27,716 bases of DNA. It comes from a virus. The stretch is taken from the IMG/VR virus record IMGVR_UViG_3300008219_005152, positions 1-27,716 of that record. One strand, 5' to 3'. Of the stretch, positions 1 through 26,577 are shown one piece after another. The position numbers and the translations under genes were made by a program. Below the pieces are notes generated by a model. It saw only the letters and a list, made by a program, of their open reading frames with translations, ran no database searches and was not told where the DNA came from. Position 1 is the first letter of the stretch. Every line of letters begins with the position of its first letter.

Positions 1-3000
1 CACCGCCGTTGCCGCCCACTTTGCCACCGCCCATCCGGGGGGTGTTATCTAAATCTCTTAGTTCTATTTGTTGTTGTCCTGGTGCTGGCTCGGCTTCTTC
101 AAAGCCAATCTGCTCGGGTTGGGGCTCAGGTTGCTCTTTGGGGGGTTCTCCTTTTTGTGGATCCCTTTCCTTAGATTTGGCTGGCTTAGGTGAAGATTCC
201 CTATTCCGTATGACCTCTTCCCTTTCCTCGCGAGAGTCTTCTTGCTGCTCGACTCTCGACCTTGGCCCCGGTTGCGATGGGGGAGGCTCTTCCGGTCTTT
301 CTTCGCGTTCCAATTCAGGGCGGAAACCTACCTTGGAGGTGATCTTTCCTAACTCCACCAACGAGCAATAGTCATAAGGCCAATTATAATTGTTTCTTCC
401 GACGCCCAATATTCCCTGGTCATATAAATTCATGGTATATCTATTTTTACGGGCTACTACCGAGTTTCGCATTCCGGGCGGAAGAGAATCAGATATATAT
501 CCAAACTGGGTGTTAAAATTCTGCGTGGCGTTGCCGTCATTAATCTCTTGGAGCATCATCGTAGTGTAATCGGTCATTCCCCGCTGTTTAACCTTGAATA
601 CCAGCCAGCGGATTTCTGGGACAAATCCATCTTTGTGAGGATGAATAACGGTATCAAGCAGGTCGGCACGCGGAATTCCCGTGCGGGGAATATTAAGCTC
701 AATTTGTTTGCTCAAGATTTCCGGATAGGGCACAAGGCGATCTTCGCTCTGCGCTGCGGGCATGTAGTGATCTATAGCCACGACGCTGGTCTTAAAATTG
801 TCTCCGATGCTTGGCAAGATTCCTTGCCATATATCCGCTAAATCTTGGCGCGAGAAAGCTACCGTGTGTTCAAAAAGATAAATAACAGGAATGCGCGCTT
901 CCGCTGGCGAAAGAACTTCATCATAGTCATCCCCCCCAAAAGGATCAATAAAGCCGGGAATTGAAGGATAATCCGGGGGGAGAAGATTTTTTACTTGCTT
1001 TCGCAACGAGGGGGGCATAGAATATTTTGTAAATGCCCGACGAAATTCTTTAATTTTGGGTCCGAGTTGATGCAGATTCGCGCGCAAGGTCATTGCCCGC
1101 ATTCTCCCATTTTCAGAGTCGTAATAAAAGGGCATCGCTATAATCCCTTCGGAAATAGTCTTTTCGCCGTCTTCCCCCAAAGTTCCCATTTTTTTAGCTC
1201 GCGAAGGAACCCATTGATTAGGGGGCATAATTTCTTCAGGCTTAAAACCGACCAAAGAAGCTAAAGAATCGACACTACGACTGGCTTCCAGCACAAAGAG
1301 CGGAACTTTTTTCACTGGTTGCACTAAAGCATTGGGATCCACACCACTGGTCCTTCCGGGGTCACCGCACAACCTAAATTCCGTAGAATTCATATCTACA
1401 TCTGAAATATAAAGATAAATCCCCTCGTTTTCTTGGGGCATTACACCATATTGGTGCCACATACCATAAGTAAAATAATCGGTTCCAGGCTGGTTGGGAT
1501 CGCCTGTTGAAGGCACATTCGCGTTGGTAAGCCCTCGCATCACTGACGCACTAAAGTTATAGCTCACAGGTGTTTGAGCTTCCGACGAGTCGCGCGATGC
1601 TGGCTTGGGAAAATCTAAAATAGGACATTCCCACTTAGGCATGATAACCCATTTATTGCTATTTAGAGGGCTAATTTTTCCTCCTACTTCCGACGGAAAC
1701 TGATTGTCGATAACAATCGTGGCATCAAGATCCTGCCGGTTTTGCCACGCTCGATTCCACTCGTAGATCGGCAGGTTAGAAGAACTGATAACCTCGGAGG
1801 ATGTTAGAGAAGCAAACGACCCGGAGGCAAAGTCATAATAATACCCGTCAGAGTTGACATATTCCACATAAATATCATCCCCTTGTAGTATTTGTCCAAG
1901 AGTTACTTCTCCACTTTCTTTGGGCATGTAGGTAAGGCGCGCAATGCTCGGTCCATAGTAATAGGTTGGTGCAAAGGGGGCGAATTCGCCGCGGTGCAAG
2001 GGCCAGTCGCGTCCTTCGGGGGTTGCGCCGACAGTGGTTTTGGTCGCTGTGCCGTAGCCCGCGGCCCTAAGCTCATCCCACCCAAATACAGTAGAACCTG
2101 TGGCGGTAGGAGTTCCAAACGCATAGGGATTACTATAAAGGTTAAAATTGTCAGTCTTCCTCACTACAACTTCCATAATGTAGGCTTTTTGGGCAGATAC
2201 CGTCGCCGTTCTTTCCTCAATTTGAGATGTTGACTGGGCTCCTTGAGGACTAGTTGTAGTATTCTTTTGCGGGATTTCTGCCACAAATTTAGTCATATAC
2301 CCTGTCTCTCTTTGGGTTAGAAAAAACTCGGGTGTTACCCCCAAAAAATTGGAAATAGCCGATCGGTATAACGTATCATTAAAAGAAGAGGAAGCTGGTA
2401 TCGAAGCTGTTACGTCTAGCCAGAGTAATGTATTTATATCAGCATTGACGACGCCAGGTTTTTCGTCGGTAAAATGTTCCATGGGCTTCAAAAGACCTTC
2501 AAAAGGAATTACATCTCCCCAAAACATCTTATTGACGTTAGCGTCTTCGAAATCAAATTGTTCCGCGCTTCCTTGCTTGCGGCGGCGGCGGCCGCCTGGG
2601 AAACCTTCGGTAATTCCGCTGAAAGCTCCAGTCAGACAACCCTTGAGAGGACTATAGAGGGTTTCCACTTGCCCAGCGGCGATGCGTCCTGGGAAGAATT
2701 GTTCGCTGTTTCTCCCGTTACGGCAAATGGGATATTGCACTCCCATGCCCGATTTAATGGAGTTATACAGAATGCCGGGAGCAAAAAATGGGCGCAGCAC
2801 GGTGCGCCAAGCAGATGCAGACAGGTGGGCATAACCATAGTTAATCGTCGAGGTCTCTTCGTTTAAATCCGAAATATCTAGGCGTGCCCCGGCAGTAACG
2901 GTGGATTCGGGTCCTCGGGTAGATCCTGAATAGGTAGCAAAGGCTCCGTATGACTCAGAAAATAAAGTAGCAATCTCCAGGGTTCTTGTTTGAGGATAAA

Positions 3001-6000
3001 AACCATCATACGGCAATAATTTCACAATCGCTTCAGACGTCAGCCCAAACTCTTTGGGCTTTTTGTTGAACTCTAAGTCATCCGTTCCATGTTCCATAAA
3101 TGGATTCAAATATTCTATCAGATCGGTAGTGGTAAAACGAGTAAAAAAGTTGGCGTCTATCGAACTGCTCAAATCGTCGGATGCCCCTGTCAGTGTGAGG
3201 GCTCCCGTCAAAGCCGTATACACTGACCCATTCGCCTTATAGGTCGGCATGTGCTCACTAATTCGGAATTCTGGTATAAGAGTATATTCTTTTCCCGCAC
3301 GCCGAATATCGGTAACGTAATCGTTGTATGTCGCGTAGGAAGGAAAATGTTGTTTAGTGAGCGCAAATCTTTGAGCCCCATCGACCACTCTTCGGCATCT
3401 TCCCGCTATCCAGTCGGGGCGGCTATAAATAGATCCCCCTACTGTTAGAGGATTGACTACATCGTAAAGTGTGATCAGCGGGGTGGTGGCTTTTTCTGAG
3501 GTAACATGGGTAGGAACGCAATAGACATATTGAGCAGATATAATACTGGAAGTTTGATAAAAGCTGATGCCGGCTTCAGCGTCTTGGTCATAACCGTCTA
3601 TTGTTTGTCCAAAATGTGGCATCATCAACTCGCCCGATTGCATTTGACCTGCGCCCGCAATAAGAGTGGCATCGTTGGTTATGTTTCCAGGTCCCCCGCC
3701 ATTGAGGCGAAGTCCAAATCTCAGCATCGCGTTAAAGGGGTTTACTGTATTGAACCCGGAAGCTCTTCCGTCACGCGCGGTAAACCATTCGGAATAAGGG
3801 AAGGAATCCATAGGCCAGATGGATCCGGTTCCTTGTCCCGTGACGGTGGCTAAAGTAAAATACGGATTAGATATTGCGGTGCCCCAGCCATGGCTCCATG
3901 GAAGTTGTTCTTCTCCCATCACCCGATATCCCTGGGAGGTGACGAAATTTCCTGTCTGTTCGGAAGCATAAACAATGGTCTCGATAAGATTCGAGCCACT
4001 AAATCTCCCAGCCTGAACAGAATTGCTTGTTATTACCGCCGATCCTGTGAGATTTTGTATTAGTTGGGGATAGAGTCCCTCAATGGTGGTGCCACCTTTC
4101 ACCAACTGCTCAAGTTCGTCAGAAAAATATATATTAGGTACCGTTACGCCATCCTCACGCCAAAAGTTGTTTTTAAACGCCAAACGCGAGCGAGTGCCAG
4201 ACAAATAAGTATATCGTTCCTGCGGATAAATCGTTTCCTTATAGGTCATTCTTTTGATAAGATCCACGCCTGTGGTGGTTCTCTCTACTTCTTGCACATA
4301 GGAATCTCTTAATATTTCATAGGGTCGCCTTATGATCCCAGACTGATATTTTCTTTTATTTCCTAATTTTACGTTCAGCCCTTTATTGGCAAACCCTTGC
4401 AGAACATTTCCGTAAGAATATTCGAGTTCTACGGGCACCAACTGTTCGTATTCGGTTTTGGAAGGAGTGCCGCGATAGGTTCTAATAGTGTGCTTGAGAG
4501 GTTTATATCGCGATGTAAGTGGAGGCTCAATAAACCGTTCGCTATATCTCTGGGTAAGAACATTGCCCACCTCCCCTGGGTTGGGGCTGGAGTATTGGCT
4601 TCTTCCCGCGTCGCGGAATGTGCGAGAATAGCTGTCTCTAAATGCCTTACTTCCTCTGTTGGTGTTGACTGACTGGGCATCAAATTCGTATACATTATTT
4701 TGGGTGTAATATTTTGCCTGTGCCAATTCGCCGGTACGAGTTTGGGTCCATGGAACAAAACTAGGGAAGGTCTCTGCCCAGATCCACCCCACATTCCCCA
4801 CACTGTTAGTGAAAAACGGTGAGAACGTACCGCTTAAAAGAGCATCAATATCCCATTCGGGAGATGAGGCTGCGCTATAAGCGCCGAATTTATAAACCTC
4901 AGCCGTAGATAGGCTGCTAGAAGGAATCAATATATTTGAAGGATAGTGGGATGACGACAGAATCCACTTGTCGTAGTTTTCGCTCCCTGTTGTGTCACTC
5001 CCTGACGTTGCCAAAAACCATTCGGTTCTGTCTGCCGCGGGAATCGGTCTGGTCACAAATCCATTATCTCGGATCGAGGCAGTGAGGGCCTGGGTGCTCC
5101 CCGCCGATGCTGGGTATGCAGCTAAAGAGAGTCTTTGTATGGTATTGCGTTGAGTTTTGTGTAAATTAGCAAGTCCAAACACAGGAACCGTATAAACATC
5201 TCCCTGTGATGCAGTTAGATTAACGATGTTGGGATTACCTGGGATATCGGTAGCTGATCGGGTCAAAGAGGGTAACCCATCATTGAACCATGTTAGCCCA
5301 TCTCCCGAAGTTTGAGCCTGCATATAGTCAAGTTCAGCAGTAATGTTTTGCTGGAATCCGCCCCAACCTGTGTATTGACGTAAATATCCTCTATAGCCGG
5401 TGCCGGCTCCCAGGGAGTAACCGAGAACTCGGCTGGCATTGTTGCCAATGCGTTTCACATACTCGTTACGATAAGTTACTACATTGTTTGGAGAAACCTG
5501 ATCCGAAGGCATGTCGCGAAATTGTTGTTTCGATACCAATTTTCCGCCGGGAGCAGCGAACTGGTTTACAATAATGGTCTGATTAGTTCTCGCCGATCCG
5601 GTTTGTCGGGGAGAGAAATAATCTACGGAGCCCGTGAGCCCGGCTGTCCTTCTTATTGGAGGGGTAACAAAAGCTGATGCCATAGACCCGCTTGATCCAG
5701 TTCCACTGGCGTGGTTGGTGACAAGATAGTAATTGCTGTTATTAAAGACAAAATCCATATTCGTCAAGGCGCGATCGTTCGTTTGAACTACCTCATAGTT
5801 TAGCTTGTAATTACCGATGGGCTGCACACCCGCAGTGGGAGCAATCGTTCCCGTAAGGGTTTTGATATTTTTAATGTTCACCGGAGCCTGGGCTAACATC
5901 CCGCGTCGGTAAAATCCTTTGGGAACAGTTCCGGAGATAATAGTTTCGAACGACCCAGTTCCCGAATTAATCGTCAGCTTGTATGACTCTTTCCTTGAAT

Positions 6001-9000
6001 CTTTGTTTTGTTCCAGAGGATTAACGTGGCGGGCTTGTAGCCCCCCCACATGCTCAAACGTAAACGGCCCTTGAATAGCAGCAGGTCGCTCATGAAGATC
6101 AACCAAGTCAACATTAGATATTCCATAAAGAACGAGAGACCCTTGATAACCTGTCGTGATGCTCGATGAGACTGCTTGGAAGGGTGCTAAAAGTTTGCCT
6201 CGGTAATGTGTACCGTCTTTGGTGGCTCTAAACGAAACTGCTCGTTTCGTTGTGGATAAAATTCGCTGAATTGGTGTGGGCAGCGGCTGAAAAGAATCGA
6301 AAGAAAAGCCGGTATTGTTGCGTGCGCGGCTTTGGTGTTCTTGGGAAATAATATTTTCTCCAGCATCGTTGCTGCCCAAGCTCACCTCAATATACGGTCT
6401 TTGACTACTAGTGTATTCAGTCTGGGCGGCAGATAAGATAGCTGCTCTATCGGTGTTTATACCAGTGTCGGTGACCGCATCAATTGACCGAGACAGGGGA
6501 TAAGCTGTTCTTTCGGCTCGAACTTTCCACCAAAAACCATTGGTGGCTTGAGAAAGCGGGATCGGTGCGTGGTTAAACTCCCAACCCCTCGTATGGGGGT
6601 TGCTTGAGTATCCCGCGCTTCTAACAACGCCGTCGCCGATAGGATAGGGATAGTTGCCCATTCGTTTTTTGTTTCCGAGAAAATGATAGTGGTATTTAGG
6701 TCTTTCGAGGATGTGACTCTCGACGATCGTCCTTACGTCTTCTGAATGGCGAGCAGAGGCGGGAAATAGTTGTTCAATCATTTGACCCATGGCTGTATCT
6801 AACCATTTATAATATTTAAGGTATTTTTCCAGATCGGGGGTGTTGCCCACTTTTCGGAAAAATATCTCCCGCAACTTTGCCATTGACTTATAATCTTGGC
6901 GATATTTGTTGACCGGCTCTCCTATGAGATTGTTCATTTCTTCGATTGACGCAAACATTTGAAGCATCCTATCGGAGATGCCCCGATACATGCTTTTTTC
7001 CAAGGAGAAGTAGAAATTAGTAGGGCGGCGATTAGGCTTAAATACTTCTACATCTCCTGCGAGAATTTTCACCATATCGTCGCTGGCCACATATTCGGGG
7101 AGTTGAGTTTTTTGAGTATAAACATATTGCTTGCGCACAGGTGACGAGCTAGTAGCAAAGAAATCGCCTCTGCCGGTGTGCTGTCTTAAATTAATATTAC
7201 TAAAGACGCCCCCCTGATAAACAGATGGGTATTCGCTGGTGCCGGTGACTGAGCCCGATGAGTAGTCGGCTACTAAAAATCTTCCGTTAATATTGCTGCC
7301 ACTAACGTCACCGAAATCCCAGTTCAGAGCCATCGTCTCTATGGCAGGAATATAATCCTGGGAAGAACCTGTTTGAAACCCGTAGGCATATCGGTAGGGG
7401 CGTAGGCGGCCAAAACTATCAACCTCTTGCGCATGGCGGTCTACTGTTCCCGTTGGAATATAATCGCTCCAATAGACCAGGCTAGACGCACGCACATCCG
7501 TCGCGGTGTCTACTGCCCCCGTAAAATTAGTGCGGTGGGCACCGAGGTATAGGCGTTTACTAGTGCCTAGCATCGCTCCACCGCTCGCAGCAGTCAATGA
7601 CGAGGTTAGATAAAAACTGTTTCTTTTAAATCCGGTGTTATAGTTGACGCCGTAAAATTCCAACTTGTAGTAATCAGAAGTCTGATCTTCAATGACGGCT
7701 CCGGTAACCCCATCAGAAAAAGGATATTTGGTCGGGCGCACACTTAGTGCTAAATTCCACTTTTGATTTTCATAGACGTTTTGAAAAACACTGCTAGTGA
7801 GAATCGTGGTTCCAGCGCGGTCAAGCACAGCAAAACTAACGTCTTTAATTTTGGAGGTAGGTGACGTGATCTCCGCATCAGCAGATGCAGATTTAATCGC
7901 ATATACCATCAGCCCATGATCATTGCCGTAATCCGCCCAAGTCAAATTACTAGAAGTGACGCTAGCAGTAAGAGGACTATGATACCCGAACAAAGAGGCC
8001 GAGTTAACCGTCACAATTTCATGATTTAGGGTATGAGTATTTGATTTATCGGGAAAGATAAATTCCGATTCAATTGTGAAGGCATATTGTCCCAAGTCAT
8101 TGCTGCCGGTAATAATCCCGATAGACTCCGGATTTTCTGCGTTATAATGTTGATAAATGGTGCCATAAGAGTCTTGGGTGTTCAAAAGACCCGTAAAATC
8201 AACATATTTTTTTGATGCAGCGCCGGCTTTATAGGAAGTATCTAAAACAAAATCTTGGTTATTCGCATATACATTCAGGGCAATGAGATCATCATCCACT
8301 CCCAAACAGCGAATAAAGTTTCTTATTGCCTTCTCGCTTCCTTTAGATTTCAGAATATAAGGAAGGTTAGCGTAAATGTTCTTATAAATTACATTTTTTA
8401 TGTCAGTGAGATTCTGGTCAAAGTTGAGGGTGGCATCCCGTTGTAAAAATTGTTCCATTAAGCCAGCATTTTCAAACAACTCCGGAGTTTGAATTCCCAC
8501 ACTATCCAAAAGACGATCATTGTAGGGGAATTCATTAATGCTAGCTGTTGCGCTGCCGCTAATGTAGCGCATTTGTTTGAGTTGTGATAGCTCCCCAATT
8601 TGAGCATGGAGCGTATCAAGATAACTAGCCATAATCTGCGTTATGTTTGAAAGTTCATTGTTGGTTTGTGCATCTTCTTCGATGATCCATGACGGGAGCG
8701 TATTAACGAGTCGCGCTGTATTAGTATAATCGTATAATTTACCCGAAGCGGTCAACTCTCCGCGGGAACCTGTCAATAAATGGTGTGTGGGCCGGACAAT
8801 TGGATCCGGCTTCTCATAAAGCGATAATGACGCAGAGTAGGCGATCGCATCTATCGCAGAGCCTGTGCTGCGGGCTCCCGAAGCATAATTGACGAACAAG
8901 CCATTTGATATTCTTCCGGAATAATCTAAAACAACCTTATCCAAAGGCGTGGAATCAGTAACTCCCTCATTGAAACGGTAATAAACCCCCAAATCGACGT

Positions 9001-10069
9001 TGGCTAAATACTGATCACTTCCGCCATAAACTCGGCTAAACCAATTCCTTCCAACCTCTTCCGCATTTCGGGCTTTTTTCCAAAACCTAAATTCATCCAG
9101 AGATCCTGACAATTTCCCCCAGCCAAGCATGCTCGCATCGGATGCGTCGGCGGATCCCGAAGGAGCAGATCGTAGAGCCGCCAAATTGCTTATTAAAGAT
9201 CCCGTAACAACTCCAATCTCTGCGCTGTAAGTTATTTTGGGGCCGACACAAGTTCCGCTTTGATAAAATTTAATATCAACTGTAGAACCGCTTGTGTCGA
9301 GAGTCACAGAATATTGATTCCACTTATTGTTACCAATATTTAAACCACCTGTGGTGGGCACCGGCAATTCGTAAAAGCCGGTTGTGCCTGACTGCATCGT
9401 GACAAAGAACCTGTCTTGTTCCACCGAGCTAATAGATACTGTAAATCTTCCATAATCATGAGAAGATGATAAATTTCCGTTCCACGCATCAAAAACTACT
9501 TCCCGAGAAGAAGTTACCTGAGAAACAGACCAGTCTTTTTTGAGGCAAAATTCTACTGCCGATCCTGAAGCGCCGCCGAATTCCAGATTGTTAGTTCTGT
9601 ATTGGGCGGTAGAATAGATAGTTCCGGAATGAGGCCCGCCTTTTGTTTGAATATATTCAGCAGAACTCGAATAATATCCCGAAGAGTGTGTAGTTGGGGT
9701 TCCGTAAGATAACCCAAACGTCACATATCCAGTAGAGCGCGGGTATTTGTCATTAAGAACATATTTTTCAAGAGCGTTAAGGTCATTATAAAACTTTGTC
9801 GTTTCCAGACCCGATCCGTCATAAGGGTAGCTGCTCGAAATATAATCAAATGCGCTCGCATAATACTTTTCGGCTGAACCAAATTTTACAAAGTTGTCGG
9901 GATCCGAAAAATCAAGTGGGGAAACAAAATCTCTATTTTTCTTGATGCTCTCACTTAGGTGAGCCGCTGATTCAATCCCATCGCCCAATGAGCCAACCGC
10001 CGATTTCTTGAGAAATTTATTAACAGTGGTTGTCTGCTTGTTTTTTTCAAATAACTTTTTGATACTCAT
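1..10069 (-). CDS. Giant virion structural protein, C-terminus beyond left edge (at least 3356 aa)
   Basis: One open frame runs from an ATG at 10069 to the left edge with no stop in about 3356 codons. The ATG overlaps the stop of the 507-aa gene (ATGA), so translation is probably coupled. The protein is rich in Ser, Gly, Thr, Tyr and Asn. Visible parts are an N-terminus starting MSIKKLFEKNK; a LamG-like region near residues 160-385; a second jelly-roll-like region near 660-900; a polybasic RRRRK patch at 2494-2498; a motif NWPYDYCSLVELGK near 3228-3241; and a Pro/Glu/Arg-rich tail at about 3250-3336 that turns Gly-rich. There is no signal peptide or membrane segment. I recall similar N-termini in proteins labelled virion structural protein in marine phages. 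Its place after gp6 suggests a peripheral baseplate or fibre-like component, possibly taking the role of T4 gp7/gp8/gp10. That role is inference; the open frame and structural character are well supported. Confidence 0.88.
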   Translation of the reverse strand, partial: MSIKKLFEKNKQTTTVNKFLKKSAVGSLGDGIESAAHLSESIKKNRDFVSPLDFSDPDNFVKFGSAEKYYASAFDYISSSYPYDGSGLETTKFYNDLNALEKYVLNDKYPRSTGYVTFGLSYGTPTTHSSGYYSSSAEYIQTKGGPHSGTIYSTAQYRTNNLEFGGASGSAVEFCLKKDWSVSQVTSSREVVFDAWNGNLSSSHDYGRFTVSISSVEQDRFFVTMQSGTTGFYELPVPTTGGLNIGNNKWNQYSVTLDTSGSTVDIKFYQSGTCVGPKITYSAEIGVVTGSLISNLAALRSAPSGSADASDASMLGWGKLSGSLDEFRFWKKARNAEEVGRNWFSRVYGGSDQYLANVDLGVYYRFNEGVTDSTPLDKVVLDYSGRISNGLFVNYASGARSTGSAIDAIAYSASLSLYEKPDPIVRPTHHLLTGSRGELTASGKLYDYTNTARLVNTLPSWIIEEDAQTNNELSNITQIMASYLDTLHAQIGELSQLKQMRYISGSATASINEFPYNDRLLDSVGIQTPELFENAGLMEQFLQRDATLNFDQNLTDIKNVIYKNIYANLPYILKSKGSEKAIRNFIRCLGVDDDLIALNVYANNQDFVLDTSYKAGAASKKYVDFTGLLNTQDSYGTIYQHYNAENPESIGIITGSNDLGQYAFTIESEFIFPDKSNTHTLNHEIVTVNSASLFGYHSPLTASVTSSNLTWADYGNDHGLMVYAIKSASADAEITSPTSKIKDVSFAVLDRAGTTILTSSVFQNVYENQKWNLALSVRPTKYPFSDGVTGAVIEDQTSDYYKLEFYGVNYNTGFKRNSFYLTSSLTAASGGAMLGTSKRLYLGAHRTNFTGAVDTATDVRASSLVYWSDYIPTGTVDRHAQEVDSFGRLRPYRYAYGFQTGSSQDYIPAIETMALNWDFGDVSGSNINGRFLVADYSSGSVTGTSEYPSVYQGGVFSNINLRQHTGRGDFFATSSSPVRKQYVYTQKTQLPEYVASDDMVKILAGDVEVFKPNRRPTNFYFSLEKSMYRGISDRMLQMFASIEEMNNLIGEPVNKYRQDYKSMAKLREIFFRKVGNTPDLEKYLKYYKWLDTAMGQMIEQLFPASARHSEDVRTIVESHILERPKYHYHFLGNKKRMGNYPYPIGDGVVRSAGYSSNPHTRGWEFNHAPIPLSQATNGFWWKVRAERTAYPLSRSIDAVTDTGINTDRAAILSAAQTEYTSSQRPYIEVSLGSNDAGENIISQEHQSRARNNTGFSFDSFQPLPTPIQRILSTTKRAVSFRATKDGTHYRGKLLAPFQAVSSSITTGYQGSLVLYGISNVDLVDLHERPAAIQGPFTFEHVGGLQARHVNPLEQNKDSRKESYKLTINSGTGSFETIISGTVPKGFYRRGMLAQAPVNIKNIKTLTGTIAPTAGVQPIGNYKLNYEVVQTNDRALTNMDFVFNNSNYYLVTNHASGTGSSGSMASAFVTPPIRRTAGLTGSVDYFSPRQTGSARTNQTIIVNQFAAPGGKLVSKQQFRDMPSDQVSPNNVVTYRNEYVKRIGNNASRVLGYSLGAGTGYRGYLRQYTGWGGFQQNITAELDYMQAQTSGDGLTWFNDGLPSLTRSATDIPGNPNIVNLTASQGDVYTVPVFGLANLHKTQRNTIQRLSLAAYPASAGSTQALTASIRDNGFVTRPIPAADRTEWFLATSGSDTTGSENYDKWILSSSHYPSNILIPSSSLSTAEVYKFGAYSAASSPEWDIDALLSGTFSPFFTNSVGNVGWIWAETFPSFVPWTQTRTGELAQAKYYTQNNVYEFDAQSVNTNRGSKAFRDSYSRTFRDAGRSQYSSPNPGEVGNVLTQRYSERFIEPPLTSRYKPLKHTIRTYRGTPSKTEYEQLVPVELEYSYGNVLQGFANKGLNVKLGNKRKYQSGIIRRPYEILRDSYVQEVERTTTGVDLIKRMTYKETIYPQERYTYLSGTRSRLAFKNNFWREDGVTVPNIYFSDELEQLVKGGTTIEGLYPQLIQNLTGSAVITSNSVQAGRFSGSNLIETIVYASEQTGNFVTSQGYRVMGEEQLPWSHGWGTAISNPYFTLATVTGQGTGSIWPMDSFPYSEWFTARDGRASGFNTVNPFNAMLRFGLRLNGGGPGNITNDATLIAGAGQMQSGELMMPHFGQTIDGYDQDAEAGISFYQTSSIISAQYVYCVPTHVTSEKATTPLITLYDVVNPLTVGGSIYSRPDWIAGRCRRVVDGAQRFALTKQHFPSYATYNDYVTDIRRAGKEYTLIPEFRISEHMPTYKANGSVYTALTGALTLTGASDDLSSSIDANFFTRFTTTDLIEYLNPFMEHGTDDLEFNKKPKEFGLTSEAIVKLLPYDGFYPQTRTLEIATLFSESYGAFATYSGSTRGPESTVTAGARLDISDLNEETSTINYGYAHLSASAWRTVLRPFFAPGILYNSIKSGMGVQYPICRNGRNSEQFFPGRIAAGQVETLYSPLKGCLTGAFSGITEGFPGGRRRRKQGSAEQFDFEDANVNKMFWGDVIPFEGLLKPMEHFTDEKPGVVNADINTLLWLDVTASIPASSSFNDTLYRSAISNFLGVTPEFFLTQRETGYMTKFVAEIPQKNTTTSPQGAQSTSQIEERTATVSAQKAYIMEVVVRKTDNFNLYSNPYAFGTPTATGSTVFGWDELRAAGYGTATKTTVGATPEGRDWPLHRGEFAPFAPTYYYGPSIARLTYMPKESGEVTLGQILQGDDIYVEYVNSDGYYYDFASGSFASLTSSEVISSSNLPIYEWNRAWQNRQDLDATIVIDNQFPSEVGGKISPLNSNKWVIMPKWECPILDFPKPASRDSSEAQTPVSYNFSASVMRGLTNANVPSTGDPNQPGTDYFTYGMWHQYGVMPQENEGIYLYISDVDMNSTEFRLCGDPGRTSGVDPNALVQPVKKVPLFVLEASRSVDSLASLVGFKPEEIMPPNQWVPSRAKKMGTLGEDGEKTISEGIIAMPFYYDSENGRMRAMTLRANLHQLGPKIKEFRRAFTKYSMPPSLRKQVKNLLPPDYPSIPGFIDPFGGDDYDEVLSPAEARIPVIYLFEHTVAFSRQDLADIWQGILPSIGDNFKTSVVAIDHYMPAAQSEDRLVPYPEILSKQIELNIPRTGIPRADLLDTVIHPHKDGFVPEIRWLVFKVKQRGMTDYTTMMLQEINDGNATQNFNTQFGYISDSLPPGMRNSVVARKNRYTMNLYDQGILGVGRNNYNWPYDYCSLVELGKITSKVGFRPELEREERPEEPPPSQPGPRSRVEQQEDSREEREEVIRNRESSPKPAKSKERDPQKGEPPKEQPEPQPEQIGFEEAEPAPGQQQIELRDLDNTPRMGGGKVGGNGG
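62..325 (-). other. Low-complexity Pro/Glu/Arg/Gln-rich tail of the giant protein
   Basis: Residues about 3250-3336 consist mostly of Pro, Glu, Arg, Gln, Ser and Lys, with runs such as EREERPEEPPPSQPGPR and EQPEPQPEQ. They are followed by a Gly-rich end (PRMGGGKVGGNGG) that leaves the window. This composition predicts a disordered, highly charged extension, unlike the beta-rich body of the protein. Confidence 0.75.
7380..8090 (-). other. Second jelly-roll (LamG-like) region in the giant protein
   Basis: About residues 660-900. The pattern FTIESEFIF, then QKWNLALSVRP, YYKLEFYGVN, KRLYLGAHRTNFTG and DVRASSLVYWSDYI resembles the strand order of a concanavalin-A-like sandwich, with an exposed W/Y closing strand. 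The similarity is weaker than for the first region, and it could be another beta-sandwich fold. Confidence 0.4.
8910..9595 (-). other. LamG / concanavalin-A-like domain within the giant protein
   Basis: About residues 160-385 of the giant protein. It begins near LEFGGASGSAVEF, alternates short beta-strand-like segments with SGS and GG turns, has a strand reading KWNQYSVTLDTSG, and reaches LDEFRFWKKARNAEEV, which resembles the closing strand of LamG-like (Laminin_G_3) domains. It is followed by YYRFNEG and DYSGRISNG, also typical after such domains. These folds usually bind glycans or act as structural jelly rolls. This call rests on motif resemblance only. Confidence 0.6.
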
Positions 10070-11589
10070 GAGCTTTCTTCATTGTTCACTCTAAATTTAA
10101 AGACCTCTGGTTGTTCCATATATTTTCCATACATATAATACATGAACTGGATCCCATAGGAATATCCTGGCTCTAAATAAGTCGTGTCTAAGTCAAAATA
10201 ATTTCCGCTAATGTCGTAGGAAAGCTTCGTAAAATTGTAACTCCCCGTTCCAAAGGGAAGAATTTCCATTTGATCGATAACCCGATAAAGTCGATAATAA
10301 GCCGATTCAATTTGTTTGGGTTTTATCGTCGTGGTGGCCAGCGTATAAATATTAGGGTTCCAGTTTTTATCTCGTACGAACACGCGCAATCGGGATTGCT
10401 GCCCCTTGAGATACTCACTTTTAAGATTCGTGATATCGGTGACATATTCCGTATCGTAAACCAAACTGCTAGCAGTTAGCGAGGTGGGGCTGAAGCTTCC
10501 TGTATAATATTGGGTGGAGCCCGAAAACCAGACGTCGCATATACCATCCAGCGTGCTCGTGGTAGCGAAGGAAGCCGTATAAGTTCCTGTAATTGTTAGA
10601 TCATTTTCGGTGAGCACTCCTCCCGAGATGTTGTATACGGTAGAGCCCAACAAATCTACGACCTCTAATTTACTTCCCGCGGGAGTTCCGTCATAACTCG
10701 CGCTATAGAAATTAACCAGTATATTTTGGAGTTTAGATTGGTCGCGACCACCGCCGGCAGCAGCTTGAGAAGTCGTGGGCTCAAGCCCCGGTATATTTTG
10801 AAGGTTTCCTCGAATATCATTATAAAGGAAGAGAGTTTGGCGATTTTCTGCCGGAGTCAACAGACTGCTTGAGAGCAAAAAGTTTCCTCGGTTATCCTGC
10901 CGGGAAGAATCCCACCTTGCCTCTATAACCGGTCTCTTGAAATAATAGTCGCTAGTTCTTCCGAAGAACCTTTTGGTATAAAATGAGCCCGACGAGCCGG
11001 AAATGATGGCGTCGGGAAATTTCAGAAGAAAGCCGTAGTTCGTTTTTTCGGTCGATCTAAAGCGCGCTATGAGGGAAGTAATATCCACACTAATATCTTC
11101 CAACCCTCCGGTAAAGAAAAAGCTAGTGGCATAATTTCCAGTCAAGTAGTCGCTTCCTGTATTGTTCCACTCTACTCCTTGAGAAGATGAAATCCAGTTG
11201 GATACGCCAATATCGGTATAGTTTTCCATATCCAATCCAGTTCCCTCAACCCAGGCGGATTCTACCATGTTGATGTCGAGGCTGTAGCTAATGGGCGTCG
11301 TGTTTCCGTGAGGAGCATTATACATTTTGAGCATGTATTGAACACTAGAGGAGGGTACGGTGCCGGCATTTATATCGGATATAAGGGTGCTCACAGGGAA
11401 GTTAATTAAAATTCTAGCCTGCTCGGCTGTGGTAGAGTTAGCCGACGCAGAAGTTTGCCCATGAATAACAAAGGCTTCCAAAATATCGGATGCACCCATA
11501 TTTGAACCAGTGCCTCGTGTTTGAAGGTCGTCTTTGAAAGCGTTGGTAATGGTATTATCACTGTTGGAAAAATATTTCTTGATTGCCAT
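10066..11589 (-). CDS. Virion structural protein, DNRLRE-like N-terminal half (507 aa)
   Basis: The ATG at 11589 overlaps the last base of the gp6-like stop (TAATG), and the stop overlaps the start of the giant gene (ATGA). The N-terminus MAIKKYFSNSDNTITNAF is followed by a beta-rich domain. Residues about 105-225 contain SAWVEGTGLDMENY, WNNTGSDY and a region ending in KRPVIEARWDSS, resembling the DNRLRE/CBM96-like pattern (Trp-x-Glu-Gly with a later Gly-x-Asp-Tyr). Then comes DNRGNFLLSSSL and a second Ser/Thr/Gly-rich beta half. No catalytic motif, signal peptide or membrane segment is visible. I recall close relatives as unnamed virion proteins in marine phages. Its position between gp6 and the giant protein suggests a baseplate-periphery or fibre-attachment role, which is inference. 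Confidence 0.8.
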   Translation of the reverse strand: MAIKKYFSNSDNTITNAFKDDLQTRGTGSNMGASDILEAFVIHGQTSASANSTTAEQARILINFPVSTLISDINAGTVPSSSVQYMLKMYNAPHGNTTPISYSLDINMVESAWVEGTGLDMENYTDIGVSNWISSSQGVEWNNTGSDYLTGNYATSFFFTGGLEDISVDITSLIARFRSTEKTNYGFLLKFPDAIISGSSGSFYTKRFFGRTSDYYFKRPVIEARWDSSRQDNRGNFLLSSSLLTPAENRQTLFLYNDIRGNLQNIPGLEPTTSQAAAGGGRDQSKLQNILVNFYSASYDGTPAGSKLEVVDLLGSTVYNISGGVLTENDLTITGTYTASFATTSTLDGICDVWFSGSTQYYTGSFSPTSLTASSLVYDTEYVTDITNLKSEYLKGQQSRLRVFVRDKNWNPNIYTLATTTIKPKQIESAYYRLYRVIDQMEILPFGTGSYNFTKLSYDISGNYFDLDTTYLEPGYSYGIQFMYYMYGKYMEQPEVFKFRVNNEESS

Positions 11590-13382
11590 TATTTCACTAC
11601 CCCCACGACATCTTTATTCGGCAGTAGCACCTCTGCCACACTATCTTGGGGAATAACTAGATATCTTCCGTCTGTGGAGAGGTTTGTATCAATATCATAT
11701 TCCGCGGTGCTGTATAATCCCCCGACTTTGTTATCAAGCTCCACATTGAGGGTATCAATAACCCCAGGCACTTCGTTTAAAAGTTTGTAAATTTCGGAAA
11801 TGTAAATGGCTTCCCCAATATTTCTCTTCACGTTTAGCAACTTGTTGATTAATTTATTCGTGCAAGCGTCTAAAAGCTCATATTTGTTTACATCTAATTC
11901 GGGGGTTATTTCAAACTTGATTCCATAATTTATTACCTTTGCATCCAAAATGTCAATGGTGTCATTCATCATGCGATAGCGATTAATCCATGTTTTGAGA
12001 TTCTCTTTCATCGTTGTGTTGGCCACAGCTAAATTCCCCGAAGTGTCTTCGGATAACACATACATGTTCAAATTTCTTTTAAGTGAGTCGGGATCTTGGA
12101 TCACGTTCACTCTCTTGATCCTGCCAAACTTAGAAGGCATCATGTAGGCAAGCGTCGTATAATCCGACCGTGTTACCGCTCGGTTTTGAGAAGCAAATGC
12201 ACCGTAGGCCCTAGTCCTTACTTCATCGGGCATAAGCAAACTCGTATCGCCCGTAATCGGTTCGGCATTTTGGGCTTCCAGTGATTGGATAACTTCCCCC
12301 ATAGTGGCGGCGGCGAGATTTGCTCGATTCCTAAAAATTAATTCGGGATTCAGGATTGTGCGAACTGATCCCACCGAAGCGTTAATATTATCATTGGTAT
12401 TAGCGCGGTAGGATACGGTTAAGGTTGTATTTTCGGGCACGACTCCGAACTTGTCAGTTTGTATGAGGTTGGAGGGATCAAAAGTTGGGTCAGAGATATA
12501 ACTTCTCCCCACTACATCTAAAACCACGTCAGCCGGATCAGCAATGATATCGCCCGTCAGATTACCCGACGACCCATAACCAAATTGCAAAAACGCATCT
12601 CCCGAGGCATCGAACTCGGTTACAAAACGGCGTGGCACCGGGCGCAGTCGCATCACATAGGGCACAGCGGTTCTATCCGAGGCGTAATTGGGAACTTCCT
12701 GTGCCACTACATCCTGAGTCAGATACTCGACTTCGTAGTATTCGTTACCCTGAGAATCTGTCACCGAAATAATTTCGCTAATGTTAGAAACCCCAACCGG
12801 AAGGCGTATAAATCGTTGATAATTGCCCACTTCTATAGCTTTGGTGCCGTTTTGCCCGGATGTAACATTCCCGAATGCTTGAACAGCAAACCATGTTGGA
12901 ACACCGGTATCCGAATCTACCTTTGCTACCGTTACCTCATTATTCGCTGCCGAGAAATCCACATTCTCGTTCAACGTAAATACTGCCCCTCCTGCCGACG
13001 ACACTGTTAACCCGCGCTGCAAAATAGGCAGATAATCAGTATCGGGTTCTCCGCTTGCTGCGGTTGCTGGGATCAGCACATAAAACGTTACTACTCCGGT
13101 CGTAGTAGCTGCGCCGGGGATTTTATATCCCAGTTGTTGTGCCAGGCGCACAACATTTTCATATTCAAGCGCGCTATCCAAAAAACTTTCGTTAGCCTGA
13201 TAATCAGTATAAAATGATAACTGGTCTCCGACATACGCAACCAAATCCAACATAAGAGCGCCAAACGAAGCTTCGTTGAAGTCTTTAAAAGTGGTGGGAT
13301 AATATCGTTTTGCGTAGTTGGTCAGCGACTCCTTGATGGTTTCAAAATCTCTGCTTGCATAAGAGATCGGTTTTTTTGACAT
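11589..13382 (-). CDS. 6: Baseplate wedge protein, T4 gp6 / baseplate J family (597 aa)
   Basis: In T4, gp6 forms the continuous ring of the baseplate with gp7, gp25 and gp53, and its rearrangement drives sheath contraction. The N-terminus shows the gp6 signature: YASRDFETIKESL, DFNEASFGALMLDLVAYVGD and ANESFLDSALEYENVVRLA. The middle contains NRAVTRSDYTTLAYMMPSKFG (about residues 395-415), typical of baseplate J proteins. The C-terminus contains IGEAIYISEIYKLLNEVPGV, as in gp6-like wedge proteins. Length is close to T4 gp6 (660 aa). The ATG at 13382 has a GAGGG ribosome site six bases upstream. The gene lies directly after gp25 and before the 507-aa virion gene, with a one-base overlap into the latter. 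The gene symbol is by homology to T4. Confidence 0.93.
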   Translation of the reverse strand: MSKKPISYASRDFETIKESLTNYAKRYYPTTFKDFNEASFGALMLDLVAYVGDQLSFYTDYQANESFLDSALEYENVVRLAQQLGYKIPGAATTTGVVTFYVLIPATAASGEPDTDYLPILQRGLTVSSAGGAVFTLNENVDFSAANNEVTVAKVDSDTGVPTWFAVQAFGNVTSGQNGTKAIEVGNYQRFIRLPVGVSNISEIISVTDSQGNEYYEVEYLTQDVVAQEVPNYASDRTAVPYVMRLRPVPRRFVTEFDASGDAFLQFGYGSSGNLTGDIIADPADVVLDVVGRSYISDPTFDPSNLIQTDKFGVVPENTTLTVSYRANTNDNINASVGSVRTILNPELIFRNRANLAAATMGEVIQSLEAQNAEPITGDTSLLMPDEVRTRAYGAFASQNRAVTRSDYTTLAYMMPSKFGRIKRVNVIQDPDSLKRNLNMYVLSEDTSGNLAVANTTMKENLKTWINRYRMMNDTIDILDAKVINYGIKFEITPELDVNKYELLDACTNKLINKLLNVKRNIGEAIYISEIYKLLNEVPGVIDTLNVELDNKVGGLYSTAEYDIDTNLSTDGRYLVIPQDSVAEVLLPNKDVVGVVK

Positions 13383-13409: not shown

Positions 13410-13811
13410 TTAGTCGTTTATCGGAGATATTTCTATTCTATCAGAAGTGTCAATTGAGCCGACGTTGTATTCGATAGAGATGCGGACTGCATTCAAATCC
13501 ATGTGACTGTCTTGATCGGATGTTATAAAGCTGATTTTCTCGATATTAATAAACGGTAGATATTTGGTTACCTGCTTGTTTATGAGTGTCACAACCTGAT
13601 TTTGAAGTCTGCCCGAAATTCCCTCGAACAACACTCTTCGAAGCCCGCATCCAAACTCGGGAATCATAGGACGCTCTCCCGGTGACGTCAACAACATATT
13701 TTTAAAGTTTTGTTTTATAACTGGGCCCAAAGTTTTGTTCAATGCATAAGGTCCGTCTTCTTGGCTGTAAGCTAGCGGAAGCCTAACTGAAATTCCCTGT
13801 AATTTTGACAT
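13410..13811 (-). CDS. 25: Baseplate wedge protein, gp25 / gpW lysozyme-like family (133 aa)
   Basis: The family forms the inner wedge core and the first contact with the tail sheath; despite its name it is not an active lysozyme. The diagnostic block GERPMIPEFGCGLRRVLFE (about residues 45-63) is present, preceded by a helix NKTLGPVIKQNFKNMLLTS and followed by a helix LQNQVVTLINKQVTKYLP and strands. The length of 133 aa matches T4 gp25 (132 aa). The ATG at 13811 has the strongest ribosome site in the window (AAGGAAGGAGGG, 8 bases upstream), overlapping a late-promoter-like GATAAATA. The gene lies between the 2054-aa LysM protein and gp6, as expected for a wedge operon. Confidence 0.93.
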   Translation of the reverse strand: MSKLQGISVRLPLAYSQEDGPYALNKTLGPVIKQNFKNMLLTSPGERPMIPEFGCGLRRVLFEGISGRLQNQVVTLINKQVTKYLPFINIEKISFITSDQDSHMDLNAVRISIEYNVGSIDTSDRIEISPIND

Positions 13812-13831: not shown

Positions 13832-13839
13832 TATTTATC
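13832..13839 (-). promoter_or_regulatory. Candidate T4-type late promoter (GATAAATA) before gp25
   Basis: The minus strand reads GATAAATA, overlapping the stop codon of the 2054-aa gene. It matches T4 late promoters (TATAAATA) at 7 of 8 positions and the NATAAATA form described for T4-like cyanophages fully. A start about six bases downstream would give a short leader that keeps the AGGAGGG ribosome site. A gp55-like sigma, the factor that reads such sites, is encoded in the same window. No transcript data support it. Confidence 0.45.
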
Positions 13840-16800
13840 CGCGGTTGTCATAAAATGCTTGAAGTTTATTTATTTTGCTGTTTAGGTTAGCTCGGTCTAC
13901 TACGGGTTTGAGATCTGCGGAAGCTGCCGCCAATTTCAAATAAAGGTGGTTGATCCCTACCTTATCTAAAACGGCACCTTGGTGCGCGTCTCGCGCCTTA
14001 AGAGGTTGCGATTCCGACGAGTCACTGTTATACCACGCGATCATACCATCCGCCATTTGGGGGGTCGCAAAATTGAACCACCATTCTGTAGACCACTCCA
14101 CATCAAATAACGCTGCCACCCCGTTAGCCGAATACGCTTCCCACAAAGGAGAATCTGCATCGGTTACATGTAACTGCTCGTAGTCATCACTTCTTCCCGG
14201 TATTCCATTAGATTCGGGCCACGTACTATAGGCAGAAAAAGCCTCTAAAAAATTATAGGAAAAAGCAGTCCACGGAATATCATAATTCACGCCATAGAGC
14301 AGCCGTTGTCGCTCCACGGATGCCCAAGGTTTAAACCGAGCACCGCCGGTCAAATCCTCACGATTTGAATGATAGTCGCCAGGAGAAGTCATAGCTGCCT
14401 CTATCACCCCTAACGCCGAAACATAGGGAGTGGTGAGAGCTTCTCGAATAATAGAATTTTTAATATTTTGGCTTAATACTGCCCACGCATCCCAGGCTAC
14501 CTCGTATATTCCACCAGAGCCCCCCTCATGTTCGCTGCCCTCAAATGTGTTTTTCCAAACCGAGCCTCCTACGTCTGAGTAGCTAAGTTTTTGAAGCCTT
14601 CTGCCTTCTCCCTTTGTGGGATCAGCTAATCCGAATTTATTTCCTAGGGTCAACTGTGGTCTCCCGCTTTCGCCTTGATTAATAAGCCTGGTGTGGGATA
14701 CTCCCGGCATAGCTCGCAGCCTTAAAAAAGAGTTCGTCGTTCTGGGGTAGGCACGGCTGACGTAATTTTCTTCGGGCGTGCCCAACACCCCATACGGCGT
14801 CGTTAGAATTCGAATTCGGTTGATATTATCGGATGTCTCAGGGTTTGGAGGAAGAAGTGGGGGAGTAATTCTCTGCTGCGTTGATCCGCCGCCGAGGGCC
14901 CTGGCCTCAAATACAGGAACTGTGGTATGAGAACCAAACATAAGTTCCTGCTTAACAATATCTTCGTAAGCCTCGTCTAACTCATTGATGCGATTTCTAA
15001 TATCTCTATACCCATAAAAAGTTTCGCCATCAATCTCCACGGGGAAGTTCATGTAGGGATTACTATAAACCGTGACCTTCTGTTCGTTGATAGCTCCCAG
15101 TAAACCATCGTCGGCTAAAGCTGCTCTTTGCCCGGCAAAGAAATTGAAGGGAGCATAATTATGCAAAAAGTCAACTGCCTTATCATAATAAATAATTTGG
15201 AGGCCGCGGATAAGTGGAACAGGGAAATATCTTAAAAACGAGATCTTTCTAAATGCATCTTTGTCAGCGGCGGAATTCCACCCTGGCGCAGGCCCGCTCG
15301 CATGAAATCCGGTGACTTGGTTTTCGATAGCATGATCAAATCCCGCGACCAAAAACCTTCCATTGTAGACGTAATCCGAGTAAGTATTATACCATCTTTT
15401 CCACACTGATTGCTGTGGTGTTTTTTCAAAGAAATTATTCGTCACAGAGGCGTATGCATCATTCTCTGACATGTTTTTGAATAACGTTAAGAGTATTTGC
15501 CTGATAAGGTAAACGAATTTGTCTTGCAGGTCGTCTATTTGGTTGTATTCAGATAATTGTCCGCCCTCTTCATCATCCACCATCACTTTCTCTACGTTAT
15601 CAAGGGAAGACAACACAAGATCAAAAATCTTCCGCTCACGGAGATCTTTCTCTATTTTGTAGGCGAGATACCCCACCATCATATTGACCGTATCCGGAAT
15701 AGCCCATCCATTATAAACCCTGAGTAGGGGTCCAGCATTAAGCATAAAATTAGCTACCCTCACCTGAAGCGTGTTTATTAGCGCGACGGCTATGTTTTCC
15801 TCTTTGGTCTTGAGGCAATCATTATTAAGACTACGCACGGCAGGTTGAGACAATACCTTTGTTAAATTTTGAAGCTTGGTTTTTCCCTGCGCTGTAAGCC
15901 AGAAATTTAGGAGTTGCGTGCGGAACTCTTCCATCCGGTTATCAAATAAATTTGAAAAGTGGTATGTGCGCCTCGTATCCTCATCCAACTCGGATAAATT
16001 TGGCGATTCACCAAGAAGGGCTGCGCGCCGAATATCTGTGTTGGCTGCTGCCACTAAATCGGGGGAATAATTATTTGTTTGAGTGGAAGTTCCGACTCCA
16101 ACCGGAACCTGAATCATTCTCATAGGGTTCGAAAGAGGTCCCGTATTTATGAAGTCGTCAGGATTGGCAGGTTCTACCAGCCGTGACGGAGCCGACGGTT
16201 GCCAGCCATGGTCGGGATTAGGGTAGGTCCGATAGGGTTGGTGTGCCACAATGCTATAGTTAGCTTTATCGGGGTTATTGACTACTTGATCGTTTACGGT
16301 AATAGTGCGGGGTAGATTGGGTGTGTTATCTTCTGCCAGCTTAAATGTGAACATGTCATCCCTGATGACTTGATCCCCAGGAGTGTTCTCTCCTGCGGGG
16401 AATCTGTTCATTGCGACGCTAACTTTATTGTCGAGGTGAAAACGAAAAAACATCTCGCCGAGATCTTTGTCGCCCGTAAACCATATTATGTCAGGAGTTG
16501 TTTTTTCGCGCTGATCACCGTCGTCGGCGTAATCGCCGTCGGGATTAGCAATAGATAAAAATACTCTGCTTTTTTTAGATTCATAAAAATTACTGGCAGC
16601 GAGATAAAGCTGCGTTTGAGTCAGCGGGGTGGCAGCTTGCTCAGGCGCTGGGTTGGCTACTTGAGCAAATAAGGCTTCCTCGATGGCTTTCCTTGCGGCA
16701 TTGGAAAGATCTGCCAGATATTGTAGAAACGCGTTGTAAAACCCAGCGAAGGGCAAGTTTTCCATAAAATTATCAATTTCAAGTTGAAAAGAAAAATTAA

Positions 16801-19800
16801 ACTTGGCAAGTTCGCACAGACTCTTGACTTCCTCTAATTTGGCGGTTATTTGACTGTCTATTTCCGCCAACAGTTGCGCTTCACTCAGCCCTGTAATTAC
16901 AGGAGAAGGAACGGGAGGATCTTTAGCCTCGCAAAATGCTTCTTTGGGGTCAACTTTGGGTAACAATCCTTCCACTCCCGAAAGCAATGACCCGATGGTA
17001 GCAAAATATTGAATGATTTTTTCGGGGGTGATACCCAAAGAAGCATATTTCGTGTCATCTCTCTTGAGAGATTCTTGTCTTTCGGCCACCAAAAGAGGAT
17101 CACCCTTCTCGTCTGGGGAAAGATCCGATAAATCAGCAAAGCCCTTGTTTACCATTTCGTTTATAATTCCGATGGTGCGATTTTTGGCGTTGCTTTGCAG
17201 CAATGCGGTAGTCTCTGTCATCAGCAGAATGTTAGAGGTATCTCTATTGAACTGCCTCAATTGATCTATGGTGGCTGCTTCTTCAACTACTATTTTTTGG
17301 TCCTGGTCGTTTCGTCGAGAATATCGATTTACCAGCCCGGAGTCAGTGGCTACCCTCACAAGATCTATATCCCCCGCTCCATCAACCAGCACATTAATCT
17401 GGATGTTGCCATAGGTGTCAATGGCAGACCCCTTGAGCTTGTCTGGGTTGTCTTCCGCATCCGATGATTCGGGCCCACACCCAAGTGCCGCTTTGACTAC
17501 ATCCCCCAGAACACTCAAGATCATCTGTTTGATAAAGGAAAATACTAGCTGCTCTATCTTTTTTCTCCAAAGAGCCATAAAGTCGGTAGTAGGTTGCTGG
17601 GAGAATTTAATCCCCTTGGGAGGAACGAGAGCCTCTGAAACTAAAGTTCTTACTCCAGGGGGGATACCGCCAGGCTTCAATATCTGCGTATCAATAAGAT
17701 CGCCGATTACCTCAATAATACAAAAAAGTTGGTTGTTTACCTCTTCTTCGACAAGGCGAAGAACTTTGTCAGGATGCGACGTATAGAATTCTAAATCGGT
17801 AAGTTTATATTTTTTAATATGCTCTTCAAGTAGTTGGTCTCTAATTTTGCTGGCGACGAGGGCTATAATATCGCGACGTTTCATTTTGCCAGTAAAAAGC
17901 TGATATACCTGCATAGCATCGCGGAGTAATGCCGCTTGAGCCGACCCGCATTGTCCTGCCGAGGCTCTAATAGTGTTAATCATGTCTTTAGAACTGATGG
18001 CTAGTCTTTGCTGGGTTTGCTTTCTAGCCAATCCGGCTGTTTTGAATATCTGCTCTTCCTCTTCTTTAGTGAGTTTCCCCTTTTTCTTATCCTCTTCTTT
18101 TTTGCGCTGCACGGCAGCCGGATAAATAATAGGATTAGGCCAAGTAAACTTAGTAACAAATTCGGTCCAGGGAATTTTATTTGCCGAAGTTTTTCCAATA
18201 GCAGAAATCTCCTTACAATAGAACATATACCCCAGGGTTGTGGGAGTTATGCCAGCAAAAAGATTGGTAGCCGAAGTTTGTGTTGGCGATGGAGAGGTAG
18301 GATTCCCGTCAGCGGTCTGCCTTTCGGAAGGGGCAGGATCGTCAGTAAAGCTTCTTCCGTATCCTTTAGTATAGGCAGTGCCGTCTACCACAATCAATTG
18401 AATAACATAAGATGCATCCATCATAAACTCGATGGTAGAATCCGAAGTAGTAGTGATTTTATTCAATGCTAAAAATTGTTCCACAGTCGCATAAAAGGTA
18501 TCTACATGTTCCGCCTGTGCCTCTAAACTTAAGCCGGACATTAGCTCCGGAGTCATCCCCTCGGAGGTAACTTCGGCGTCGTATTCTCTCAATACTCGCG
18601 CTGTCTCCTTAAGATTTTGTTTAAGATCTTCCAGCTTAAAGGGAGCGTTTTTCATCGTCCCTGTCCACCGATTGGTGGTCGATAAAATAGCTTTTAATAA
18701 TTGAAGGGAAGTCATATCGCCTTCGCTGATTCCTGTCGGGGGGATAGCGCCGGAAGGTATTACGGAGTCTAATGTCGTCTTGCTCACTTTGGCATAAACT
18801 ATCCATCGCTTGGGAACCGGGCGCGGAGCTTCGCCGGTAGGGGCTTTTCCGGTACCGGAATGAGGTCTTCCAGGGTCTCCGTAATAAGACCCCACCTCGA
18901 CACCTTCAGTTAGGTCTTCGCCTGACAGAAGCCGGGCTTTTTGTTCTGCGGTGGCAAATGGCTCTTTCCCCGCAGCCTTTAAGATTTGGTTAAGCCCCCG
19001 TTCTTTTAATTTCCTAAAGTTTTCCCTTACTGGGGCGCTCCCCTCTACGAGCCCAATATCATATGATCTGGGGTTGACGGCATTTGTTCTTTTGACATAA
19101 TACCAATATTGATCGCTGGTATTATAGTAGGGCTCCGGGTTTGGGTCTTCGGGCGGAGCGTGAACAAAAGGATTGTGCCCTGTTTTAACATTTTGGGGGG
19201 CCGCTCCTTGATCTTCAATAGGTTCTGGAGGAGGTGTTACGCTGGGGCTGACCGTTTCTAAATAGCCGGGGATAAGAACGGGATCCCCAGGATAAATCAG
19301 ATCGATGTTGCGGATCTGCGGATTAGCCTCTACAATTTTGTTCAAAGGCATGTTGTAAATCACGGCTATCCCACTTAGTGTGTCGCCCCGCACCACTATA
19401 TGGGTAAAATCCGACGAAGGCTCAGCAGGTGTTGCATTTCCAAACGATGTTCGGATCTGTTTTACCTTTTCTTGCGGAATGGTGTTTTCTACATCGGGCA
19501 TCTGCGCTACTTTAGTAGAAACACTTTGCCCTGCGGCCGGCTGGTCAATGGTCGATTGATTTTCAATTAATTGAGAGAGTTGGGTGGTCACACTCAATAA
19601 ATTATCGATCCCTTCCGTGTCATCCGCAATTTCTCTCAAAATCACTAGGGCGGCTTCGTCACCTACAAGCATCAATGTTAGTTGATCTGGATTTATCTCC
19701 CGTATAGGCGGGACAGTTCTCGCTTTTTTTACAATGGCATTTTGGGGATACAAGGCTGCGTATGCCAATGCATCCTCAACGGTGATGGTGCGCGTCTCCT

Positions 19801-25191: not shown

Positions 25192-25192
25192 C

Positions 25193-26574: not shown

Positions 26575-26577
26575 CTA

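Follow-up and report, generated by a model that had tools for sequence, protein, structure and literature searches.

TssF and TssG correspond to gp6 and gp7 of T4 and to gpJ and gpI of P2; gp7, gpI and TssG are linked by structure, and gp7 takes part in the (gp6)2-gp7 trifurcation (PMC6300606). gp7 is BW3, and receptor-binding proteins bind either to BW3 or to BW2 together with BW3 (PMC10811340). The DNA analysed here, called the window below, is a stretch of 27,716 bases that makes up the whole of its own virus record. On its minus strand it carries a gp25-type and a gp6-type gene and, further downstream, an open frame that fills the left 10 kb. The position of this giant frame, downstream of gp6, parallels the orders 25/6/7 of T4 and W-J-I of P2, with one gene intervening. 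The original prediction, made from the letters of the window, of a giant phage structural-type gene was right, and the gene lies in a T4-like baseplate cluster. As described below, this is a conserved, overlooked and very large form of a baseplate gene of a known kind, whose product is made as two pieces in some relatives.

A giant gene in a conserved baseplate cluster

The genes of the window on which the comparison rests are the following:

2..10069, minus strand: giant gene, 3,356 of its 3,360 codons within the window (open frame; stop in contig L002; purifying selection in relatives)
10066..11589, minus strand: 507-aa ORF directly upstream of the giant (ATGA overlap)
11589..13382, minus strand: 597-aa baseplate wedge protein of the gp6 type (E 1.7e-21 to PHROG 219, baseplate wedge subunit)
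13410..13811, minus strand: gp25-type baseplate wedge protein (PF04965 GPW_gp25, E 5.7e-13; PHROG 261/43)

Translation from the ATG at 10069 gives 3,356 stop-free codons up to the left edge of the window, as originally claimed; over 2..10069 the remaining minus-strand frames contain 150 and 239 stops. The start codon overlaps the stop of the 507-aa ORF in an ATGA at 10066-10069. The C-terminus had been placed close to the edge, with leftward extension proposed as the way to find the stop. Since the window is the whole record, the 3' end had to be taken from another contig, IMGVR_UViG_3300025305_000045 (L002/L026), which differs from the window gene at 4 of 10,068 nt (3 amino acids). There the protein ends in GGNGGDYDF, followed by a stop at L002:12011-12013. 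With the stop 4 codons beyond the edge, the complete product comes to 3,360 aa and 373 kDa; the 3' end of the gene, including the stop, falls outside the window by 15 nt, and the expectation that stop-delimited gene lists would miss it was right. Dozens of independent contigs carry the same ORF (~25-67% identity), and dN/dS between close pairs of relatives is 0.04-0.09, which confirms the giant as a true gene and neither a chance frame nor an assembly artefact, again in line with the earlier claim. The loci analysed include 78 complete single ORFs of 2,945-3,706 aa, a count in which the same contig can occur as more than one locus. Profile self-comparison revealed no internal repeats.

Gene order around the giant is constant: gp25, gp6, 507 aa, giant, 314 aa, 1187 aa, 1119 aa and 352 aa. 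Among the relatives' loci long enough to show the gene in question, the expected family was in place in 8/8 cases for gp6, 7/7 for gp25, 67/67 for the 507-aa ORF, 76/76 for the downstream 314-aa ORF and 53/57 for the 1187-aa family, and in every such locus for the 1119-aa and 352-aa families. The gp6-type protein of the window also matches the 'baseplate wedge protein' of phage immuto (E 1e-83).

Several neighbouring ORFs showed features of their own. The 507-aa ORF bears a weak Disaggr_repeat (DNRLRE-like) resemblance at 367-413. The N-termini of the 314-aa (L002:12049-12993) and 352-aa (L002:20049-21107) ORFs look alike (LTPYGKHLFSVGKF and LTDTGRKRLAAGDG), so these two are perhaps paralogues. 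Directly before gp25 lies a second giant of 2,054 aa (13835-19999, minus strand) with LysM at residues 200-244 (E 2e-10); because the gp53-type wedge protein has a LysM fold, this second giant may be of the gp53 type or a fused hub protein. A 465-aa ORF (20959-22356, minus strand) contains a stretch, RESSNTY...GKYQMG, that appears lytic transglycosylase-like by eye, with no family match for the ORF, and a 234-aa ORF (22702-23406, minus strand) matches the late sigma factor family PHROG 234 very weakly (E 0.015). Finally, 24181-27715 (minus strand) holds a sugar-nucleotide cassette with a UDP-GlcNAc 2-epimerase, an NAD-dependent epimerase/dehydratase, a nucleotidyltransferase and a HAD hydrolase.

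In IMG/VR, the two ends of the giant protein used as queries found 24 and 14 loci, and the alignment of its C-terminal module found at least 577 contigs encoding a relative of that part. Pfam and PHROGs gave nothing beyond a sub-threshold LamG match, and sequence searches of the PDB with profiles of the giant, its N- and C-terminal modules and the immuto clade gave no match. tblastn of the N-terminal, middle and C-terminal parts against 50,697 phage records found no annotated phage with the giant, and we found no description of the protein in the literature. A gp23-type capsid is present in 7/15 relatives' records, among them those of the three annotated reference phages, and a tail sheath in 5/7; the 27.7-kb window contig itself carries neither. 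Capsid and sheath in the long relatives identify these phages as T4-like and contractile-tailed. The relatives' sheath ORFs (L228-L232) have ~940-1,140 aa and are larger than T4 gp18, a protein of 659 aa. psbA, sought as a sign of cyanobacterial hosts, was absent in 12 records, and a genome scan for the host returned two MAG matches only, one in a WOR-3 bin and one a 3.6 kb contig. The WOR-3 match (L226:8028-12590, candidate division WOR-3 MAG CP070664.1) consists of a 611-aa piece of the C-terminal module followed by the 314-aa family, on a chromosome-sized MAG contig, and is probably a phage remnant or a misplaced stretch. A marine source of the giant-bearing phages is likely, given that a structural neighbour of the C-terminal module is labelled 'uncultured marine virus'.

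Modules of the giant protein

Alignment of the relatives, profile comparisons and structure prediction divide the protein as follows:

6650..10069, minus strand: N-module, residues 1-1140, in the position of a gp7/gpI wedge module; best conserved part, with homology to immuto and an uncultured jumbo phage
8960..9592, minus strand: predicted LamG/concanavalin-like sandwich 1, ~residues 160-370 (PF13385, E 1e-4, below its cut-off)
8195..8797, minus strand: conserved helical core, residues 425-625 (hhalign to the immuto-clade core)
7460..8092, minus strand: predicted LamG/concanavalin-like sandwich 2, ~residues 660-870 (AlphaFold pLDDT 66-93 over most of 620-870)
6689..7027, minus strand: conserved block, residues 1015-1127 (IGEPVN...FPASA...ESHILERPK), from the alignment
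3410..6649, minus strand: middle module, residues 1141-2220, variable in length and sequence, with a second fusion boundary near residue 1727
302..3409, minus strand: C-module, residues 2221-3256, conserved in all relatives
2..301, minus strand: charged Pro/Glu/Lys/Arg-rich tail, residues 3257-3356 and on to 3360 (39% charged, 16% Pro)

The N-module is 40-65% identical among relatives, with its core motifs intact, and it occurs as a free-standing ORF of 1,165-1,267 aa in L020/L021, L081, L083, L085, L095, L100, L101, L103, L108, L109, L113 and L117. In hmmsearch it matched the syntenic proteins of immuto and of the uncultured jumbo phage LR756508 (E 3e-17 and 2e-20), and in hhalign the core of the giant aligned with a widened immuto-clade core (probability 100, E 1.6e-63). 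Residues 1015-1127 form the most conserved stretch of the alignment and are common to immuto and L042; a KGS/KGT motif lies in the core at residues 571-590 (window 8300-8359). The immuto protein (QQO92079.1, Flavobacterium phage vB_FspM_immuto, 1,265 aa, uncharacterised) stands at the same place after gp25-gp6 as the giant. Proteins of its type share the N-module core (425-625 and 1015-1127, with an FPxR...IKPxLLxRSK block), but the immuto protein is without the second sandwich, the middle module and the C-module. The syntenic homologue in LR756508 has 1,400 aa. WWT39511.1 of Microcystis phage Mel-JY01, related to the immuto protein by tblastn (E 1e-44), was included in the immuto profile and is not matched by the giant's own profile alone. 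Complete immuto-clade members holding the whole core have 831-1,938 aa, the short ones ~830-960 aa, so that the giant, at 3.0-3.7 kaa, is much the largest form seen.

Two LamG/concanavalin-like beta-sandwiches are predicted in the N-module with fair to good confidence. AlphaFold pLDDT for sandwich 1 is mostly 60-87, and Foldseek matched the sandwich model to pentraxins, neurexin, PAPP-A and CBA120 TSP2 (E 1e-5 to 1e-7, best 2e-7), with a two-domain match to neurexin L2-L3 covering both sandwiches. LamG sandwiches are typical of carbohydrate binding. The BW3 wedge fold has an N-terminal helical bundle and a trifurcation domain; over the giant's core (471-618 and 984-1165) helices are predicted at low confidence (pLDDT <50). 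The middle module is Ser/Thr/Gly-rich and gave no match in Pfam, PHROGs or tblastn. The C-module has 70 invariant columns in the alignment and an AlphaFold model with pTM 0.74 and a moderate pLDDT of 65. Foldseek found no PDB fold matching this model at E below 2; in BFVD it found only unnamed viral proteins (E 1e-33 to 1e-44, ~20% identity). Among these, A0A1B1IV21, A0A1B1IWQ4, A0A516M7I0 and A0A0F7LAZ6 ('uncultured marine virus') are pieces with the C-module fold, none of them described, and presumably belong to the giant's family. The fold of the C-module may therefore have no solved counterpart, although the moderate pLDDT calls for care. The C-terminal tail combines low pLDDT with low conservation and is probably disordered.

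We compared these modules with the known wedge proteins. Profiles of T4 gp5, gp6, gp7, gp8, gp9, gp10, gp11 and gp53 had no match in any of the three, and of the neighbouring gene families gp6 alone was matched, to T4 gp6. T4 gp7 gave hhalign probabilities <1% against the N-module, the whole giant and the immuto core, and it was not detected by the P2 gpI profile either. Tail_P2_I (PF09684) had no Pfam match in the giant at E 0.1. The KGT motif of the giant aligns with the KGT motif of P2 gpI (score 28.1 versus a maximum of 23.1, with 0/200 column shuffles as high), in a weak alignment of only 39 columns with hhalign probability 9-14%. This KGT...IR...LG alignment has a pairwise P of 0.002-0.004, or 0.03 and a lower score with the widened clade; it was obtained at the same spot from three profiles (giant, immuto trio and widened immuto clade) and is confined to the giant's KGT region. 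The original statement that the protein matches no named T4 baseplate protein thus holds at the level of sequence profiles but is incomplete, as position, immuto homology and the KGT motif indicate a gp7/gpI role.

One chain or two

In a C-module tree of 81 rows, the protein is a single chain in 60, is split after the N-module in 13 and is split further downstream in 8. At least 7 changes between the single and split states are required by the tree (6 without L013), and all 10 rows of one supported clade show the break after the N-module. Each second ORF opens at a start of its own, often in another frame, and one group has a common start context (about gagactagttactaaATG, MANKTII.SAPP). Directly 5' of the second-ORF ATG, L081, L083, L085, L095, L100, L103 and L113 carry a near-constant leader, gagactagttactaa, which is a possible common expression signal. 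At the downstream boundary, the second protein of L116, L118, L120 and L132 starts with MAYYLDFVGLNTF or similar, and DFVGLN is found in homologous context inside the single-chain relatives L036, L111, L125, L131, L133, L139 and L140. This boundary maps to ~residue 1727 of the window protein, where the motif is lost. The split ORFs and the embedded DFVGLN show that the giant is built of modules existing both joined and apart, in counts that fit either direction of change. The split in L013 was considered as a third break point and rejected: it is a single in-frame TAG that no good start follows, the close relative L016 is intact, and the TAG may reflect either an error or a nonsense mutation.

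Probable place of the giant in the wedge

Cluster position, homology to the immuto and jumbo phage proteins and the KGT motif together argue for a gp7/gpI wedge role, and in the light of these signs the missing T4 match is probably a failure of sequence comparison. By position and motif the N-module is most likely a gp7/gpI-type wedge subunit, and we consider it probable that the whole is a giant wedge protein of a contractile-tail baseplate, with the N-module doing the gp7/gpI (BW3) job. It might instead be a giant adhesin or tail-fibre-type receptor-binding protein on the baseplate, with the gp7 role falling to the 507-aa protein or another gene. The carbohydrate-binding type of its LamG sandwiches, its size and Ser/Thr/Gly-rich middle, and a 507-aa ORF directly after gp6 would suit such a protein. 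However, the high identity and intact core motifs of the N-module are unlike fast-evolving receptor-binding tips, this module always lies within the gp25-gp6 cluster, and immuto-type homologues hold the same place without the middle and C-modules, which makes an adhesin unlikely.

We regard as rather improbable a polyprotein-like fusion of separate wedge proteins that, once translated, is cleaved into two or three functional chains: relatives do have separate ORFs at two homologous break points, the second ORFs with their own starts, and the DFVGLN start motif is embedded in fused relatives, but the fusion is kept in most lineages. Size alone would recall a tape-measure protein; the predictions are of beta-sandwich and mixed alpha/beta structure instead of long helices, and the gene lies after gp25-gp6, so we give this reading hardly any credence. 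An open frame produced by assembly error or chance, for which one could cite a single frame at a contig edge, is already refuted by the independent contigs, the complete ORFs and their dN/dS, and retains practically no probability.

As a gp7/gpI-type wedge protein, the giant would use its N-module (~1,140 residues) to pair with the gp6-type protein encoded nearby and to help complete the six-wedge ring, and the sandwiches with the fused middle and C-terminal modules would form an outward wedge arm. This putative arm would probably dock tail fibres and/or touch host surface glycans, its binding being relayed to the gp6/sheath machinery. We infer the BW3 role and the glycan or fibre binding from the features above, and from its context we take the giant to be a virion protein. 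More tentatively, the outer wedge of these phages may be mostly one chain of ~370 kDa, in which a gp7-type module and two modules of unseen fold replace several T4 wedge and fibre-dock proteins, with repeated switching between one and two chains at fixed borders.

A core tail gene of 10 kb, carried by hundreds of uncultured phage contigs but missing from Pfam, from PHROGs and from the records of annotated phages, is now given a testable place in the baseplate. Its product occurs naturally both as one chain and as two, which offers a ready-made test of whether wedge modules need a covalent link. Compared with T4 gp7, P2 gpI and TssG, the giant has the same gene position after a gp6/gpJ-type gene and a KGT...A(I/V)R motif with a weak resemblance to that of P2 gpI, but it is three times longer and has extra LamG domains, and, unlike in T4 and P2, a 507-aa gene stands between gp6 and the giant. 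Its predicted sandwiches have the fold of the LamG/concanavalin A-like domains of tailspikes and pentraxins, whereas those of the giant are embedded in a probable wedge protein.
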